The notes beneath the pieces were generated by a model. That model saw only the letters and a program-made list of their open reading frames with translations. It did not search any database and was not told the origin of the DNA. Positions 11,987 through 18,680 of a stretch of 64,000 nucleotides of DNA are shown in pieces. Positions within the stretch are counted from its first letter, which is position 1. Each line of letters begins with the position of its first letter. This DNA comes from Vreelandella malpeensis (GTDB lineage Bacteria > Pseudomonadota > Gammaproteobacteria > Pseudomonadales > Halomonadaceae), in the NCBI RefSeq assembly GCF_020622355.1, contig NZ_WHVL01000003.1:1-64000 (forward strand), read 5' to 3'. Position numbers and translations under genes: made by a program.

Positions 11987-12163
11987 ATGTACGTCTATCG
12001 ACTGGTGCTGTTTCTGGTCTTCGGCGGCTACCTGCTCTCGCCGGTGCTGATGGATGGCTGGGGCGAGCCCGGCACCGTCTGGTATCGCCCCTTCGTGATC
12101 TGGGGCGGGCTGATCGCGCTCACCCTGTGGCTCGAACAGAAAAGGAAACTGGATGAGCGTTGA
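11987..12163 (+). CDS. 58-aa single-pass membrane protein, CbrX-like
   Basis: A small protein with a hydrophobic N-terminal segment (about residues 3-20), a second hydrophobic stretch (about 37-49) and a basic tail ending in KRKLDER. It begins 2 nt after the gluQ stop and its 3' end overlaps cbrA by 11 nt, so ribosomes finishing here can start cbrA. In Pseudomonas a small ORF in exactly this place (cbrX) is reported to be translationally coupled to cbrA; I recall this and did not check it. Position and size suggest the same element. No biochemical function is known to me. Confidence 0.75.
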   Translation: MYVYRLVLFLVFGGYLLSPVLMDGWGEPGTVWYRPFVIWGGLIALTLWLEQKRKLDER

Positions 12164-15098
12164 GCTTCTGGGCGTCATCGTGCTCGGCCTTGGTTACTTC
12201 ACCCTGCTGCTGGGGGCGGGACTTGCGGTGGAGCGCGGCCTGATTCCCGTGCGCGTCACCCGCCACCCGCTGGTCTACACCCTGGCGCTGGGGCTCTATG
12301 CCAGCGCCTGGGCGATCTACGGCAGCGTCGAGCTCGCTGCTGAAGCGGGGTTTGGCTATCTTGCCTACTACCTCGGCGCGGCGGGCGTGTTCTTGCTGGC
12401 GCCGGTGCTGCTGGTGCCCGTTCAGCGCATCACCCGCACCTACCAGCTCGCCTCGCTTGCCGATCTGTTCGCGTTTCGCTTTCGCTCGCGCTGGGTAGGA
12501 TCGCTGGTGACGCTTTTGAGTCTGGTGGCGGTGCTGCCGCTGCTGGGCATCCAGGTGAAGACGCTGAGCGAGGCGACCTTTCACCTGACCCACAGCCGCT
12601 ACAGCGAAGTGGCCACGTTCGTCTTCTGCGCCTTCGTCACCCTGGGGGCGATCCTGTTCGGCGCTCGCCACCGCCACCAGCAGCGTCACGACACCCTGCT
12701 CAGCGTCATCGCGCTGGAGTCGCTGATCAAGCTCACCGCCCTGCTCGCCCTCGGCGCCATCGCCCTGTGGGGAGTATTCAGCGGCCCTCAGGATCTGCAG
12801 CAGTGGCTCGACGGGCCGGGAGCGGCGGCCCAGGCGGCGACGCCCAAGCTCGACCCTGCCCAGTGGCGCACCCTGCTCTTGCTGTTCTTTGCCGCCGCCT
12901 TGTTGATGCCGCATCTTTTCCAGCTCACCTTCGCCGAGAACCTGTCGCGCCATACGCTGTTGCAGGCGAGCTGGACGCTGCCACTGTTCCTGCTGCTGAT
13001 GGCGCTGCCGATACCGCTGATCTGGTGGGCCGCCCAGGCCCAGCACGGCGAGATATCGATCACCGCCTACGCGGCGTTTCTGCTCTCGACCAACCCTTGG
13101 GTCGGGGCGCTCGCCTTTCTGGCAGGCCTGGCGGCAGCCAGCGGCACCATGATGGTGATGGCGATCGCGCTGTCGGGCATGGTGCTCAACCACGTGGTGC
13201 TCGTCGCCCGTCCGCCGGAGGCCCGCAGCAACCTCTACGGCTGGCTGTTGTGGCTGCGCCGGGCGCTGATGGTAGGCGTGGTGGCCGGCGGCTGGCTGTT
13301 CGCCGAGGGCGTCAGCCGCCACCATTCGCTCACCGACTTGGGCCTGGCCGCCTTCGTCGGCATTGCCCAGTGCCTGCCCGGCATGCTGGCGCTGCTCTAC
13401 TGGCCCGGCGCCAACCGCAACGGCATGGTGGCGGGGCTTGTCGGCGGGACCCTGGTCTGGTTGTGGGGTCTGTGGCTGCCGCTGCTGCTCGCCACACCTC
13501 TCCCACGCCTGCCGTTTCTCGACATGATGCCCGTCGATGCGCCGAGCTGGTACACCACCACGCTGATTTCGCTTTCGGTGAACATCGTGCTCCTGATCGT
13601 CATGTCGCTGTTCACCCGCACTTCCGGCGGCGAGCACTCCGCCGCCGAGGCGTGCTCGGTGGATGCGGTGATCCGCTCCAAGCGCCTGCCTCTGGAAGCC
13701 GCCACCGCCGGTGACTTCACCCAGCATCTGGCCGGGGCGCTGGGCGACGAGGCCGCCGGCCGCGAGGTCACCCGGGCGCTCAAGGCGCTGAACCTGACGC
13801 TCGACGAGCGCCGCCCCTACGCCCTGCGCCGCCTGCGCGATCGCATCCAGGCGAACCTGTCCGGGTTGATGGGCCCATCGGTGGCCCGCGACATCGTCGA
13901 CCGCTACCTGCCCTACCGCCACGACGAGACCTCGGGCACCGACGACATTCATTTCGTCGAAAGCCGGCTCGAAGCCTACCGGTCGCGGCTGACCGGCCTT
14001 GCCCGCGAGCTCGACGGGTTGCGCCGCCATCACCGTCAGACCCTCGCCCACCTGCCGGTCGGACTCTGCGTGCTCGGTGACGACGGCGAGATCACGCTAT
14101 GGAACCAGGCGCTGGCCGAGCTCTCCGGAATCCCCGGCGACAGCGTGGTCGGCTCGCGCCGCGACAGCCTGCCTGCCCCCTGGCCGGCACTGCTGGCCGG
14201 CGTGCTCGAGGCACCCCATACGCCGCTCTACAAGCAGCCCGCCAGGCTTCACGGCCGGGACTGCTTTCTGACCCTGCAGCAGGCCACCCTGAGCGGGCTC
14301 GACAGCCGCGGCGGCAGCGTGATCCTGGTCGAGGATCACACCGAGATGAAGTGGCTGGAAGAGGAGCTGGTGCACGCCGCGCGGCTCGCCTCGATCGGCC
14401 AGCTCGCCGCCGGGGTCGCCCACGAAATCGGAAACCCGATCACCGGCATCTCGTCGCTGGCCCAGAACCTGCGTTTCGACACCAGCGACCCGGCGCTGCT
14501 GGAAACCGCCGACCATATCCAACAACTCACCCAGCGCGTGACGCGCATCGTCAACGCCTTGGTGGGCTTCGCCCACGGCGGACGCCAGGCGCTGCCGGCA
14601 CCGACCGAGGCGGTGGCGCTCAAGGCGATCGGCGACGATGCGCTACACTTGATCCACCTAGCCCGCTCGGGAGAGGATGTCGGCTTTCTCAACGCAAGCC
14701 CTGGCCATGTTGTCGTCAAGGGCGACGCCCAGCGCCTGACCCAAGTGATGGTCAACCTGCTCGGCAATGCCCGGGACGCCTGCAAGGCGGGCGGCAAGGT
14801 GATCATCGAGGCCGGCGAGCAGGGCGGCTACGCCTGGTGGCGAGTGACCGACGATGGCGAGGGCATCGCGCCCAGCGTGAAGGATCACCTGTTCGAGCCC
14901 TTCACCACTACCAAGCCGCCGGGCGAAGGCACCGGGCTCGGGCTTTCGGTCGCCTACCAGATTATCAACGAGCACCAGGGCCGGATCGAATGCGCCTCCC
15001 CGCCGAGCGGCCGGTCGCGCGGCACTGCCATTACGCTCTGGCTGCCGCTTTACCCACAGGATGATCGCCCCCTACATGGCCAGGATACTGATTGTTGA
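12153..15098 (+). CDS. cbrA: sensor histidine kinase with SLC5-type transporter domain, CbrA
   Basis: Membrane sensor kinase of the CbrAB system that controls carbon/nitrogen balance and amino-acid use. The 981-aa protein has, in order: a sodium/solute symporter (SLC5-like) region with about 13 membrane helices to residue 490, a linker, a PAS domain at about 625-735, and an HK core with H-box [11 protein letters not shown] (phospho-acceptor His757), N-box [10 protein letters not shown]1 DDGEGIA, F-box FEPFTTTK and G2 GTGLGLS. The start overlaps the upstream small ORF by 11 nt, with AAAGGAA at 12141-12147. The 3' end overlaps cbrB. No receiver domain is fused. Whether the transporter half moves histidine, as reported in Pseudomonas, cannot be judged here. 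Confidence 0.93.
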
Positions 15099-16440
15099 AG
15101 ACGAAACGATTATTCGCAGCGCCCTGAAACGTCTTCTGGAGCGCAGCGGCTACGACGTCGTCGAGGCACCGAGCGTCGAGGAGGCCGCGCCACTCGCGCT
15201 CGCCGAGTTCGACCTGATCATCAGCGACCTGCGCCTGCCCGGCGAGCCGGGCACCGTGCTGATCGACGCCGCCGCCCCGGCGCCGGTGCTGATCATGACC
15301 AGCTACGCCAGCATGCGCTCGGCCATCGAGGCGCTCAAGCAGGGCGCGGTGGACTACGTCGCCAAGCCCTTCGATCACACCGAACTGCTCGAGACCGTCG
15401 AGCGCATCCTGCACAAGCGCGCCCAGGCCCGGGACGTCGCCCCGGCGATCACCGATGAGCGCGGCACCCGCCAGACCATGATCGGCGACTGCGCGGCGAT
15501 GCAGCAGGTCTACACGCGCATTCGCAAGACCGCACCGGCGGACGTCAGCGTGCTGATCCAGGGCGAGTCCGGCACCGGCAAGGAACTGGTCGCTCGTGCG
15601 CTGCACCAGCAGAGCAAGCGTGCCAAGGCTCCGTTGATCTGCGTGAACTGCGCGGCGATCCCCGAAACGCTGATCGAATCCGAACTGTTCGGTCATGAGA
15701 AAGGTGCCTTCACCGGCGCGAGTGCGTCCCGTACCGGGCTGGTCGAGGCCGCCGACGGTGGCACGCTGTTTCTCGACGAGATCGGCGAGCTGCCGCTCGA
15801 TGCTCAGGCGCGGCTTCTGCGCGTGCTTCAGGAAGGCGAAATTCGCAAGATCGGCTCGGTCGAGACCCGCCATGTCGACGTGCGCCTGATCACCGCGACC
15901 CACCGCGATCTACGCGCGCTTTCCCGAAGCGGCGAGTTTCGCCTCGACCTTTACTACCGCCTCAACGTCATGCAGATCGCCTTGCCGCCGCTTCGCGAAC
16001 GCGAGCAGGACGTGCTCAAGATCGCCGATATCCTGCTCGAAAAAGCCTGCAAGCGCCACGAGCGCCCCGGTCTCAAGCTCTCACGTGCGGCCCGCCAGGA
16101 CCTTCAGGACTACCCCTGGCCGGGAAACGTGCGCGAACTTGAAAACGCCCTGGAGCGTGGCGTGATCCTGGCCGAAGGCCACCTGATCCACCCGGACGAC
16201 CTGGGCCTAGGGCCGATCGTGCACCGCCCCGCTGCCCTCGCCCCCGAGTCGGTACCGCTTGACGACGATGAAGAGGATCTGTCGCTGGAGGATTATTTCC
16301 AGCATTTCGTGCTCGAGCATCAGGATCAGATGAGCGAGACCGAGCTCGCCCATAAGCTTGGCATCAGCCGCAAGAGCCTGTGGGAAAGGCGCCAGCGCCT
16401 GGGCATACCGCGCAAGAAGACGTCCAAACGCCCCAATTGA
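15076..16440 (+). CDS. cbrB: sigma-54-dependent response regulator CbrB
   Basis: NtrC-type activator partner of CbrA. The 454-aa protein has a receiver domain (phospho-acceptor Asp51 in ISDLRLPG), an AAA+ domain with Walker A GESGTGKE at 163-170 and the sigma-54 contact loop GAFTGA at 210-215, and a C-terminal Fis-type helix-turn-helix (about 418-445). I chose ATG 15076 because the protein then begins [10 protein letters not shown] as receivers do; ATG 15061 would add five residues. It overlaps cbrA by 23 nt. Its likely prime target is the sigma-54 promoter 217 bp downstream of its stop. Confidence 0.93.
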
Positions 16441-16533
16441 GTGCATTCGTCGCCCCCACGCGCACCTTCTACGACCAACGTCCAATAGCCTGATTTGAAT
16501 AAGAAATGTTTATGAAATCGAGGGTTTCGGCGC

Positions 16534-16583
16534 TGTTACCGTCCCACCCACGCGGGTTAAAAAACGGCGTTTTTCGGGTAACA
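16534..16583. promoter_or_regulatory. candidate CbrB upstream activating half-sites
   Basis: Two inverted half-sites, TGTTACC (16534-16540) and GGTAACA (16577-16583), lie about 100-150 bp before the predicted start of the small RNA, the normal distance for a sigma-54 activator. TGTTAC/GTAACA is the half-site type I recall for Pseudomonas CbrB. Spacing here (38 nt between the six-base cores) is wider than one dimer site, so they may belong to separate dimers. A small palindrome AAAACGGCGTTTT-like (16561-16574) lies between them. Confidence 0.55.
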
Positions 16584-16656
16584 CTTTTCGAGCGCACATC
16601 ATCCTGGCACACGCATTAATTCACAAACAGATGAAATAGCTTGTTTTTTTCATAAG

Positions 16657-16672
16657 TGGCACGCGCAGTGCA
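16657..16672 (+). promoter_or_regulatory. sigma-54 promoter of the CrcZ-like RNA
   Basis: TGGCAC-N5-GTGCA: the invariant GG (16658-16659) and GC (16670-16671) are separated by exactly 10 bp, and only one base departs from the TGGCAC-N5-TTGCA core. The transcript should start near 16683. An AT-rich stretch just upstream (16636-16656) could take IHF or ease melting. Confidence 0.8.
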
Positions 16673-16682
16673 GTATTACTGG

Positions 16683-17135
16683 GTAAGAAAAATAGAAAAC
16701 GGGCAGCGGTGGCAACAACAAGAACAACCCACACCGCGAACGCTTCGCCATAACAACAATAAGGTGCGAAGAGTGAGATGAAGCAGAACACAACGATAAC
16801 GGCTTGAGTCTCGCCACTTGCTGACGCCCCAAGTGGGCGTTCGACAAGAACAACAACAGCCAGCAAGAGCCCGAAAAAGGACGCGACGTACACGGGTCGA
16901 GCAGCCAACAAGAACAAACGCTCGAAGTGTACAGCCCGGAGCCAACAACAACTCGCCGGGAGAGAGAAGTTCGCGGTTGGATTATTGTTTTGAATACGAG
17001 GCGGTCGGAGCCAAGTAAGTACAATCTTGCTGACTGCGGTGCGTATTCAGGGCGATGTGCCATCATGAAGAAAAACAGCAGCACGGATGCTGATTTACCC
17101 AATTGACAGGGGAGGCTATCTTAGCCTCCCCTTTC
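16683..17135 (+). ncRNA. crcZ: CrcZ-type Hfq-titrating small RNA (candidate)
   Basis: An ORF-free transcript of about 450 nt between cbrB and pcnB, the place of crcZ in Pseudomonas, framed by a sigma-54 promoter and an intrinsic terminator. It has seven exact AAnAAnAA matches: 16685, 16714, 16752, 16846, 16907, 16944 and 17068. These are the A-rich motifs bound by the Hfq distal face with Crc. By eye, four sit in apical loops of short hairpins: 16706-16737, 16743-16771, 16888-16932 and 16935-16960. A further hairpin without motif is at 16812-16839. By family analogy the RNA would sequester Hfq/Crc and relieve catabolite repression when CbrAB is active. Apparent minus-strand frames here are not credible. 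Boundaries are inferred. Confidence 0.8.
17108..17135 (+). terminator. terminator of the CrcZ-like RNA
   Basis: An 11-bp perfect stem (AGGGGAGGCTA at 17108-17118 with its complement at 17122-17132), a 3-nt loop and a short T-run. It ends the small RNA and insulates pcnB. Confidence 0.9.
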
Positions 17136-17191
17136 CGCGTCCAGAGCATGCCTTTTTCGAACGCACCTCGTACAAACCTTATTGGGACGCT

Positions 17192-17220
17192 TTGCAAGGC
17201 GTATAAGGGTCGGCTACACT
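17192..17220 (+). promoter_or_regulatory. sigma-70 promoter of pcnB-folK-panC
   Basis: TTGCAA (17192-17197), a 17-bp spacer and TACACT (17215-17220, two mismatches to TATAAT) lie about 70 bp before the pcnB start and after the small-RNA terminator, giving pcnB its own promoter. Confidence 0.6.
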
Positions 17221-17291
17221 CAGCGACTTATCATTTATCATTGCCCTTGTGAACCTACTTATTCTGATTAACCGCGAGTCGATATCGACGC

Positions 17292-18680
17292 ATGTTTAGA
17301 GGACTTACCCGCTTTTTTCCTGGTTCGGGAGAGCAAGTGAAGACCCCGCCCGCCTCCCCGCAGAGCCCCGCCAAGGCGCCAGCGCTGCAGATCATCCCTC
17401 GCTCCGAGCATCCCATTTCTCGACAGCAGATCAGCGATGCCGCCTTGAAGGTGCTCTACCGTCTGGACGGCGCAGGCTACGGTGCCTATCTGGTGGGCGG
17501 GTGCATTCGCGATGCGCTGCTCGGCAAGATGCCGAAGGATTTCGACGTGGCCACCGACGCCACGCCCGAGCAGGTGCGCGACCTGTTTCGCAACTCGCGG
17601 TTGATCGGGCGACGCTTTCGCATCGTGCACGTGCGCTTCGGCCGCGAAGTGATCGAGGTGACCACCTTCCGCGGCAAGCCGCAAGACGAGCATGGCGAGA
17701 ATATCGCCCATCAGTCCGACGACGGCCTGTTGCTGCGTGACAACGTCTGGGGCAGCATCGAAGAGGATGCGCTGCGCCGCGACTTCACTGTCAACGCCCT
17801 CTACTACAGCATCGCCGACTTCTCGCTGCACGATTTCGCCGGCGGTATCGGCGACATCAACGCCCGTACCCTGCGCCTGATCGGCGATCCGGCGACCCGC
17901 TACCGCGAGGATCCTGTGCGCATGCTGCGCGCGGTGCGCTTCGCTGCCAAGCTCGATTTCGAGATCGCCCCGGACACCGAAGCGCCGATGTTCGAGCTCG
18001 CGCCGTTGCTTTTGCAGATTCCGCCGGCGCGGCTGTTCGACGAGGCGCTGAAGCTGTTCATGTCCGGGCATGGGCTCGTGACCTTCCAGCTTTTGAGCTA
18101 CTACGGCCTGTTCGGGATGCTGTTCCCCGAGGCCGAAGAGGCCATGGCCGACGAGCCTTGGGTCGAGGCACTGATCGAGCAGGCGCTGATCAATACCGAC
18201 AAGCGCATCGCCGAGGAGCGCCCGGTCACTCCGGCGTTTCTGTTCGCGGCGTTTTTATGGGGCCCGGTGGCTCTGCAAGCAGCGGCGCTCGAAAGCGAAG
18301 GCATGCCTGCCGTACCGGCACTGCAGCTCGCCACGCAGCAGGTCAGCGCTCGCCAGCTCCAGCACGTCTCGATTCCCAAGCGTTTCGGCATGCCGATGCG
18401 CGAAATCTGGGAGCTGCAGGCCCGGCTGCCCATGCGGCGCGGCAAGCGCGCCTTTCAGACCCGCGAGCACCCGCGCTTTCGCGCCGCCTTCGACCTGCTG
18501 CTGCTGCGAGAACAGGCCGGTGAACTGTCGCGCGGTTTGGGCGACTGGTGGGAAACGTTCCAGCACGGCGACGAACACGAGCAGCGCCGCCTGCTGCAGA
18601 AGGTCGGCGGCGACCCGGCAAGCCAGGGCGACCGGCGGCGCAAGAAGCGCCGCAAGCCGCCGCGCAAGTTTGATCAGTGA
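17292..18680 (+). CDS. pcnB: poly(A) polymerase I
   Basis: Adds poly(A) tails to RNA 3' ends, which promotes decay by PNPase and the degradosome. Class II nucleotidyltransferase of 462 aa: catalytic aspartates in KDFDVATDA (Asp83 and Asp85), the YLVGGCIRD motif just before, RNA-binding domains in the middle, and a very basic tail (RRRKKRRKPPRKF) typical of PcnB rather than CCA-adding enzyme. It overlaps folK by 4 nt (GTGA). PNPase is encoded at 22698-24842. Confidence 0.95.
   Translation: MFRGLTRFFPGSGEQVKTPPASPQSPAKAPALQIIPRSEHPISRQQISDAALKVLYRLDGAGYGAYLVGGCIRDALLGKMPKDFDVATDATPEQVRDLFRNSRLIGRRFRIVHVRFGREVIEVTTFRGKPQDEHGENIAHQSDDGLLLRDNVWGSIEEDALRRDFTVNALYYSIADFSLHDFAGGIGDINARTLRLIGDPATRYREDPVRMLRAVRFAAKLDFEIAPDTEAPMFELAPLLLQIPPARLFDEALKLFMSGHGLVTFQLLSYYGLFGMLFPEAEEAMADEPWVEALIEQALINTDKRIAEERPVTPAFLFAAFLWGPVALQAAALESEGMPAVPALQLATQQVSARQLQHVSIPKRFGMPMREIWELQARLPMRRGKRAFQTREHPRFRAAFDLLLLREQAGELSRGLGDWWETFQHGDEHEQRRLLQKVGGDPASQGDRRRKKRRKPPRKFDQ

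Follow-up and report, generated by a model that had tools for sequence, protein, structure and literature searches.

The window, the whole 64,000-nucleotide stretch analyzed from the 3.6 Mb genome of Vreelandella malpeensis, carries gluQ, cbrA, cbrB and pcnB in that order, with an interval between cbrB and pcnB (Table 1; gluQ was named by eye from the open reading frames). The N-terminal part of CbrA is described as SLC5-like, or transporter-like, in passages of a review (PMC8871633); our Pfam search of CbrA gave no SLC5 match among the domains listed. By inspection, 16441-17291 holds no plausible gene, and its minus-strand frames of 91-150 aa look mechanical. A sequence-only reading of this DNA had described the interval as free of open reading frames, with a GG-N10-GC sigma-54 promoter, seven AAnAAnAA motifs and a strong terminator; each of these was recovered, the motif count when overlapping matches are merged and the terminator with a short U-tract. 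The window opens at the contig start, inside a minus-strand 16S rRNA gene (1-369).

Table 1. Features of the cbrB-pcnB locus, in coordinates of the window.
Feature	Position	Strand	Basis or remark
cbrA, sensor kinase	12153..15098	+	ORF; PAS, HisKA and HATPase domains in Pfam
cbrB, sigma-54-dependent response regulator	15061..16440	+	ORF; receiver and sigma-54-activator domains
CbrB subsite F1, TGTTACC	16534..16540	+	Read in sequence; putative site
CbrB subsite R2, GGTAACA	16577..16583	+	Read in sequence; putative site
Sigma-54 promoter TGGCACGCGCAGTGCA, GG-N10-GC	16657..16672	+	Read in sequence
CrcZ-like small RNA, predicted transcript of ~451 nt	16684..17134	+	Start by analogy with Rfam CrcZ; end is the terminator
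5' A-rich part, six AAnAAnAA sites	16685..16951	+	Motif scan and fold
Conserved 3' part, model R1	16972..17090	+	122.6 bits, single match in genome
Nearly invariant 15-bp helix, 5' strand ATTGTTTTGAATACG	16984..16998	+	0-2 mismatches in 119/119 family loci
Covarying 8-bp helix, 5' strand	17001..17008	+	Alignment fold
Covarying 8-bp helix, 3' strand	17030..17037	+	Alignment fold
Nearly invariant 15-bp helix, 3' strand CGTATTCAGGGCGAT	17042..17056	+	Core CGTATTCA, 0-1 mismatches in 119/119 family loci
Seventh AAnAAnAA site, immediately downstream of the conserved helix	17068..17075	+	Predicted unpaired probability 0.72
Intrinsic terminator, stem 17109-17131 (GGGGAGGC...GCCTCCCC), then TTT	17109..17134	+	-18.6 kcal/mol
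pcnB, poly(A) polymerase, conserved downstream gene	17292..18680	+	TIGR01942 (NCBIfam subfamily model) above cut-off

We place the start of the predicted RNA near 16684, where the earlier reading had also put it, because in five control records the CrcZ called by Rfam begins 27 nt downstream of the first T in TGGCA. The promoter score of the interval was reached by none of 60 shuffles, and the fold of the predicted RNA beats all 100 of its shuffles (z -5.8). The terminator, a strong stem with a U-tract of TTT, was missed both by a consensus scanner and by a separate stem scan. On the plus strand, 16685-17075 contains 12 overlapping AAnAAnAA matches, out of 32 in the whole 64 kb on both strands (5.1 ± 2.25 in shuffles), or seven once overlaps are merged. 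Counted in merged form, the complete cbrB-pcnB interval has 8 motifs, whereas its dinucleotide shuffles give 0.8. Predicted mean unpaired probabilities at the six upstream sites (16685, 16714, 16752, 16846, 16907 and 16944) are 0.82, 0.91, 0.94, 0.58, 1.0 and 0.99, leaving two of the seven sites, the fourth and the seventh, only partly unpaired in the predicted fold. Within the otherwise variable 5' part, a block at 16876-16889 around AGGACGCGACG is conserved family-wide (consensus caGgACGCGAcG). Upstream of the promoter lie the putative CbrB subsites F1 and R2, whose sequences we took from passages of PMC6296734, which reports subsite mutants, and of PMC8871633; the middle subsite of Pseudomonas, R1, is not evident by eye in the window.

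The expectation that standard covariance models would miss this RNA held when the model was run. RF01675 scores 14.0 bits in the window against a gathering cut-off of 95 bits, and under strict filters it exceeds the cut-off in none of the 151 Halomonadaceae genomes; the sole sub-threshold match in the family (22 bits, genome G036) lies just upstream of pcnB. As a positive control, we ran a pattern made of the promoter and the 5' end on a collection of 84,980 species. The pattern returned at least 120 matching stretches; among the matches listed, 101 lie in the cbrB/gluQ-pcnB slot, and the remaining 19, none with more than 4 motifs, appear to be chance matches. Five of the 101 in-slot matches listed are CrcZ RNAs called by Rfam at 329-366 bits, four of them in records titled Pseudomonas. 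The window's own 5' end deviates slightly from the pattern, and beyond its first bases the RNA body in the window has no significant covariance-model match to Pseudomonas CrcZ. Taken together, the pattern and the Rfam control suggest that slot, promoter and 5' end are common to true CrcZ and that the rest has diverged past the model. Matches in the window to the Rfam models purD, on the opposite strand, and Proteo-phage-1 fall below cut-off and were set aside as chance.

CbrB relatives at E <= 1e-100 were found in 114 of the 151 family genomes. We read 90 of these CbrB(+) loci, leaving out 24 genomes; 30 loci came from the CbrB search and 60 of the 84 others were hand-picked to cover all genera. 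pcnB was in reach in 89 of the 90, from 16 genera, and L072, with no pcnB in reach, was dropped. In all 89, a sigma-54 site with a score of 6 or 7 out of 8 (86 start TGG, three AGG or GGG) is combined with 6-11 AAnAAnAA motifs. The motif count averages 8.4, whereas dinucleotide shuffles average 0.83 and the opposite strand 1.08, and in each interval it lies more than two standard deviations above that interval's own shuffles. With one mismatch permitted in each subsite, the F1/R2 pair occurs in 89/89 CbrB(+) loci and in 0/30 loci from genomes lacking CbrB. The gap between F1 and R2 is 37 bases in 75 pairs and 36 in the window; a 37-base gap corresponds to TGTTAC-N39-GTAACA, the upper end of the F1-to-R2 range in the published CbrB pattern, TGTTAC-N12-14-GTAACA-N15-19-GTAACA (passages of PMC8871633). 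Across 119 family loci, 89 with and 30 without CbrB, the motif sites are predicted to be likelier unpaired than other A's in every locus, with probabilities of 0.92 against 0.65 in CbrB(+) and 0.90 against 0.63 in CbrB(-) loci. Terminators at -10 kcal/mol or better follow in 76 of the 89 CbrB(+) loci.

The genome encodes RpoN and an Hfq that differs little from P. aeruginosa Hfq across residues 1-77. It also encodes two exonuclease-III-family proteins, one of which, a Crc homologue (L032:1486-2253), lies between rph and pyrE, both named by eye from the open reading frames. In the PDB this protein matches 2myi, labelled exodeoxyribonuclease III, at 252 bits, P. aeruginosa Crc (4jg3) at 244 bits and then 2jc5, labelled exodeoxyribonuclease, at 220 bits. 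Aligned with 4jg3, it has the motifs QN, GTWH and SEY, which presumably depart from the nuclease catalytic residues and leave a degenerate exonuclease III active site; we assign the protein to Crc on this active site and on its locus beside pyrE/rph. Crc relatives at E <= 1e-40 occur in 151/151 family genomes, five of the listed rows having one stop in the matched frame. Those parts of the proposed CrcZ-type circuit that sequence can reveal (cbrAB, the promoter, F1/R2, RpoN, Hfq and a Crc homologue) are thus all present. The target side of the circuit drew no support from one sequence test: over 464 kb of the same genome, with gene starts called by a crude rule, AAnAAnAA near start codons shows no clear enrichment, at 5/333 genes against 2.85 ± 1.5 in shuffles; one of the five resembles a TRAP-transporter binding protein by eye.

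Three features of the system go beyond the sequence-only reading: a conserved 3' part, a spread across the order, and the loss of cbrAB in relatives. Alignment of the 119 family transcripts, from 21 genera, separates a variable, A-rich 5' part from a strongly conserved 3' part, in which ATTGTTTTGAATACG and CGTATTCA lie 32-99 nt apart. An insert of such variable length between the strands led us to reject a protein-coding function for this region. The 3' model R1 and the covariation analysis were built on alignment A1, which holds 57 of the 119 loci. In these 57 sequences 8 of the 15 pairs of the long helix are constant and its G-U pairs are kept; the 8-bp helix sits on top, and both sides change in 4 of its 8 pairs. 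The paired cells of the 3' part are 98.2% compatible with pairing against 95.6% in shuffles and 29-44% when the strands are slid. Evidence from covariation is mixed: cells with a double change number 28 against 6.4 ± 3.6, a value reached in 0/500 shuffles, and two further statistics fall within the null, namely doubly changed pairs (4 against 2.6 shuffled, 66/500 shuffles as high) and further pair types (21 against 18.9 shuffled, 39/500 as high). The covariation is supplied by the variable 8-bp helix; with no double change in the 15-bp helix, pairing there rests on complementarity. Constraint on its sequence beyond what pairing requires suggests a protein partner.

The 3' part was found only in Halomonadaceae, as far as these sequence searches reach. 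Under strict filters and with 10 candidates scored per genome, model R1 matches once (E <= 0.01, 106-158 bits) in each of the 12 family genomes included in the order draw; among 281 genomes outside the family it gives a single weak match (27 bits). Over 65 loci outside the family R1 produced nothing better than E 0.42, the 3' part is absent by eye from two Pseudomonas CrcZ sequences, and neither motif nor model matched in the Pseudomonas records. Candidate Rfam homologues were rejected: cmscan of 16960-17145 gave 22.2 bits to a microRNA model with a cut-off of 80.5, a hairpin look-alike, and MH_s15 reached 9.3 bits. Elsewhere in the order, downstream of cbrB in L291 (family f38; minus strand, ~33-101), a hairpin ATGTTTTGAATG...CATTCAAAACAT around ACAACAACAATAA resembles the Halomonadaceae 3' helix in other letters; R1 scores it at E 3.5, and it could be a distant form of the 3' module.

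We consider it very probable that the interval encodes a CrcZ-like regulatory RNA some 450 nt long, driven by CbrB and sigma-54 and titrating Hfq/Crc, with a second, 3' part. What supports this explanation is that the sequence elements are present, are conserved and are lost or kept together; from these we infer, by analogy, that the RNA is transcribed and titrates Hfq/Crc, and also what it responds to and what its 3' part does. The slot, the sigma-54 promoter, F1/R2, AAnAAnAA sites predicted to be accessible, and a genome with Hfq and Crc are the features of this functional class found here, and by its anatomy the window RNA is a predicted CrcZ-like Hfq/Crc decoy. As function rests on analogy, we file it as a CrcZ-like working and positional counterpart, outside RF01675 as that family stands. 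When good carbon sources are short, CbrA would activate CbrB, which would bind TGTTACC and GGTAACA some 80-125 bases upstream of, and so drive, the sigma-54 promoter at 16657. The resulting RNA would present its seven A-rich sites, mostly in loops, to the distal face of Hfq, together with Crc, and by analogy this decoy would pull Hfq/Crc off catabolic mRNAs and relieve repression. Put simply, the RNA probably soaks up the protein pair that blocks the use of second-choice foods. The long, nearly invariant 3' helix ahead of the terminator is most likely a protein-binding or stabilising element.

The same stretch might instead act mainly in cis as a leader of pcnB, its 3' helix and terminator forming an attenuator of read-through and the A-rich part being secondary. 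The 3' part is indeed conserved more strongly than the A-rich part, is single-copy in each of the 12 family genomes, and is located upstream of pcnB in the 119 family loci read, mostly just ahead of the terminator. Such a leader would nonetheless leave the 4-10 AAnAAnAA sites per transcript, mostly unpaired by prediction, without a role, and the corresponding slot in Pseudomonas holds CrcZ, an Hfq-titrating RNA according to PMC4063720 and PMC5501646, without the 3' helix; we regard a leader as very unlikely. Near-invariance of both 15-nt strands beyond the needs of pairing would also suit an Hfq-dependent sRNA that uses Hfq for its own stability and pairs with target mRNAs through these strands. 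Both strands are, however, locked in a predicted perfect helix and would make a poor seed, and the number of A-rich sites looks well above what a chaperone site needs, so a base-pairing sRNA appears unlikely here. That the interval is just an A-rich spacer with chance motifs might be argued from its composition, since its G+C content is 50%, lower than that of cbrB and pcnB (65%) and of the window (64%); the dinucleotide shuffles, the opposite strand and conservation across 21 genera refute this, and we give it practically no credence.

The slot extends well beyond the family. CbrB-like proteins at E <= 1e-115 occur in 235 of the 293 genomes of the order, from which we read 58 loci, the best-scoring 22 and a non-random 36 picked by family. 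A sigma-54 site scoring at least 6 was present in 51 of the 58, at least 4 motifs in 44 and pcnB in 45. Of the 27 other families sampled, 19 include one or more loci that combine the promoter with at least 4 motifs. Loci with fewer than 4 motifs came from families f2, f8, f9, f30, f31, f36, f40 and f41. L292 has 7 motifs and no sigma-54 promoter of that type, and six loci (L289, L300, L302, L312, L318 and L325) have 0-2 motifs and lack both that promoter and, in the downstream stretch, pcnB; in L300 this stretch ends at a contig edge. In the other five of these (f6, f8, f29 and f36), neither a pcnB match nor an A-rich RNA was seen within 900 bases after cbrB. Three loci of f9 (L293, L297 and L303) have a cbrB-pcnB gap of 318-383 bases with a sigma-54 site and 2 motifs, a shrunken or different CrcZ. 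With CbrB in 235/293 genomes and RNA-like loci in 19/27 families, carbon control by Hfq/Crc/CrcZ looks ancestral to the order. The order-wide slot looks to contradict a 2022 review, passages of which confine CbrAB to Pseudomonadaceae and name Pseudomonas and Azotobacter as its only hosts (PMC8871633). In the literature pairing CrcZ or CbrA with Halomonas, which includes few subscription papers and was available in part, neither is described there, and the excerpts of the top-ranked matches in the broader literature held nothing on the subject. Transcripts of cbrA/cbrB have been reported in a mesopelagic community (excerpt of PMC5073097).

CbrB is absent at E <= 1e-100, a threshold that a more diverged CbrB could escape, from 37 of the 151 family genomes in eight genera: g4 (Salinicola by PcnB identity), g15 (Kushneria), g8, g10, g16, g17, g18 and, in g20 (the Halomonas/Billgrantia group), genome G105. 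The best CbrA matches in these genomes reach 30-34% identity over the transporter-like part (two extend to residue 662) or 34-36% over the kinase part; since each match covers one part, no full-length CbrA is seen. Most of these genomes keep the CbrA-like transporter part in an open frame of ~1320-1390 aa (for example G116:C19:49871-51175), which we take to be perhaps a CrbS-type sensor. pcnB was found in 36 of the 37, and we read 30 loci (17 from g4, 9 from g15 and one each from g8, g10, g16 and g20), leaving out six, among them all of g17 and g18. Upstream genes were sought with five reference proteins, which a small intervening gene could escape; gluQ stands at the place expected for cbrB in 29 of the 30, and L111 ends at a contig edge. 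An assembly artefact was considered and rejected, given 37 genomes in eight genera and gluQ upstream in 29/30 loci.

These CbrB(-) loci keep the RNA. Their promoters score 6 or 7 in 28/30 and 5 in L095 (G105) and L124, all 30 have a terminator at -10 kcal/mol or better, and 4-9 motifs (mean 7.2) lie downstream of the promoter, against 6-10 (mean 7.9) in CbrB(+) loci by the same count. Single CbrB half-sites occur in four loci. Among the pattern matches listed, at least six named records likewise have gluQ-RNA-pcnB and no cbrB, including Salinicola salarius, S. corii, S. avicenniae, S. acroporae and Kushneria sinocarnis. Because genomes without cbrAB retain the RNA, the CbrB signal is not essential to it everywhere. 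On a PcnB tree made by a quick method, omitting 5 short rows, L217 and L237 (contig edge) and the outgroup L192, and counting L186 as CbrB(-) on only 390 bases upstream, cbrAB loss needs two changes, with a branch support of just 51 for the large group. L095, without cbrAB, and L093, with it, are close neighbours, a recent natural deletion that is useful for following promoter decay.

We scanned the 150 bases upstream of each RNA promoter with an NtrC matrix of 47 boxes, hand-picked among the best matches in glnA promoters of 30 genomes and seeded with what we take to be the NtrC consensus; p values are against mononucleotide shuffles. NtrC-type boxes at p <= 0.05 occur in 28 of the 30 CbrB(-) loci, which are not 28 independent cases because rows of one genus are related, and in 29 of the 89 CbrB(+) loci. 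The latter belong mostly to the Halomonas group (15/19) and Modicisalibacter (5/10), where the box usually lies at -103, nested between the CbrB subsites. In Vreelandella, the genus of the window, 1/25 loci has a box, which is the chance rate. None of 400 column-permuted matrices reached the real score for the CbrB(-) loci, whether on 29 rows (L111, with 88 bases upstream, was omitted) or on six genus means, and the same 0/400 was obtained for the CbrB(+) loci as a whole, Salinicola, Kushneria, Modicisalibacter and the Halomonas group; Vreelandella (243/400), g3 (301) and g5 (103) stand at the null. Outside the family, no box at p <= 0.05 was found in 11 loci that we took as Pseudomonadaceae (7 of f21 and 4 from records titled Pseudomonas) or in 39 other order loci, these being the ones among 51 outside f21 with the promoter, at least 4 motifs and enough upstream sequence. 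NtrC itself is above cut-off in 30/30 genomes tested, including 12 CbrB(-) genomes. In G105, a recent loss, comparison with the neighbour G143 shows both CbrB subsites overwritten and only a partial NtrC-type box (p = 0.07).

This pattern suggests that in part of the family control of the RNA has been rewired from carbon to nitrogen, NtrC being the most likely activator of the RNA in relatives that lack cbrAB. The likeliest course would begin with CbrB control, followed by gain of an NtrC box in part of the family and then loss of cbrAB, leaving NtrC. We tentatively propose, at somewhat less than an even chance, that a CrcZ-type decoy has outlived its own activator and answers to nitrogen in Salinicola, Kushneria and related genera, and that its 3' helix forms a second regulatory module bound by a protein of its own; this covers the separate loss in one Halomonas-group genome, with NtrC boxes claimed for the genera only. 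Alternatively, another sigma-54 activator or read-through from gluQ may drive the RNA in CbrB(-) genomes and the boxes may be coincidental. The matrix is built on 47 hand-picked boxes, its half-sites may be common to other NtrC-family activators, of which each genome has several, the recent loss in G105 reaches just p = 0.07, and a diverged CbrB beyond the search threshold is possible. Against this alternative stand the 28/30 loci detected with a matrix from glnA promoters, the failure of all 400 permuted matrices, also on genus means, the lack of boxes in the 11 loci taken as Pseudomonadaceae and the 39 other order loci, and the presence of NtrC in every genome tested; we consider the alternative rather unlikely.

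Halomonas relatives are used for polyester and ectoine production, for which carbon preference matters, and the Halomonadaceae would have a CrcZ-type system that the present Rfam model misses. Loss of cbrAB and of the CbrB sites, retention of the RNA and the NtrC boxes together amount to a natural rewiring experiment.

Compared with CrcZ of Pseudomonas and Azotobacter (RF01675) and its relatives CrcY and CrcX, the Halomonadaceae RNA shares the cbrB-[RNA]-pcnB slot, a sigma-54 promoter of the form TGGCAY-N6-TGCW, CbrB subsites, a terminator, several AAnAAnAA sites and a genome with Crc and Hfq. Unlike CrcZ, it lacks a covariance-model match at the RF01675 cut-off, has a family-specific invariant 3' helix and no R1 subsite evident by eye, and in part of the family comes with an NtrC-type box or with no cbrAB found; unlike CrcZ/CrcY/CrcX, its 3' part is single-copy in 12/12 family genomes searched. 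RsmY/RsmZ-type RNAs are also protein-titrating RNAs. The RNA predicted here would resemble them in carrying many copies of a short protein-binding motif and sequestering a translational regulator, but the protein, the motif and the promoter control are different. At the hutU promoter of Pseudomonas, CbrB and NtrC sites overlap (passages of PMC8871633), much as the candidate box at -103 is nested between the CbrB subsites at one sigma-54 promoter in Halomonas and Modicisalibacter; the target there is a catabolic operon, whereas here it is a putative decoy RNA.
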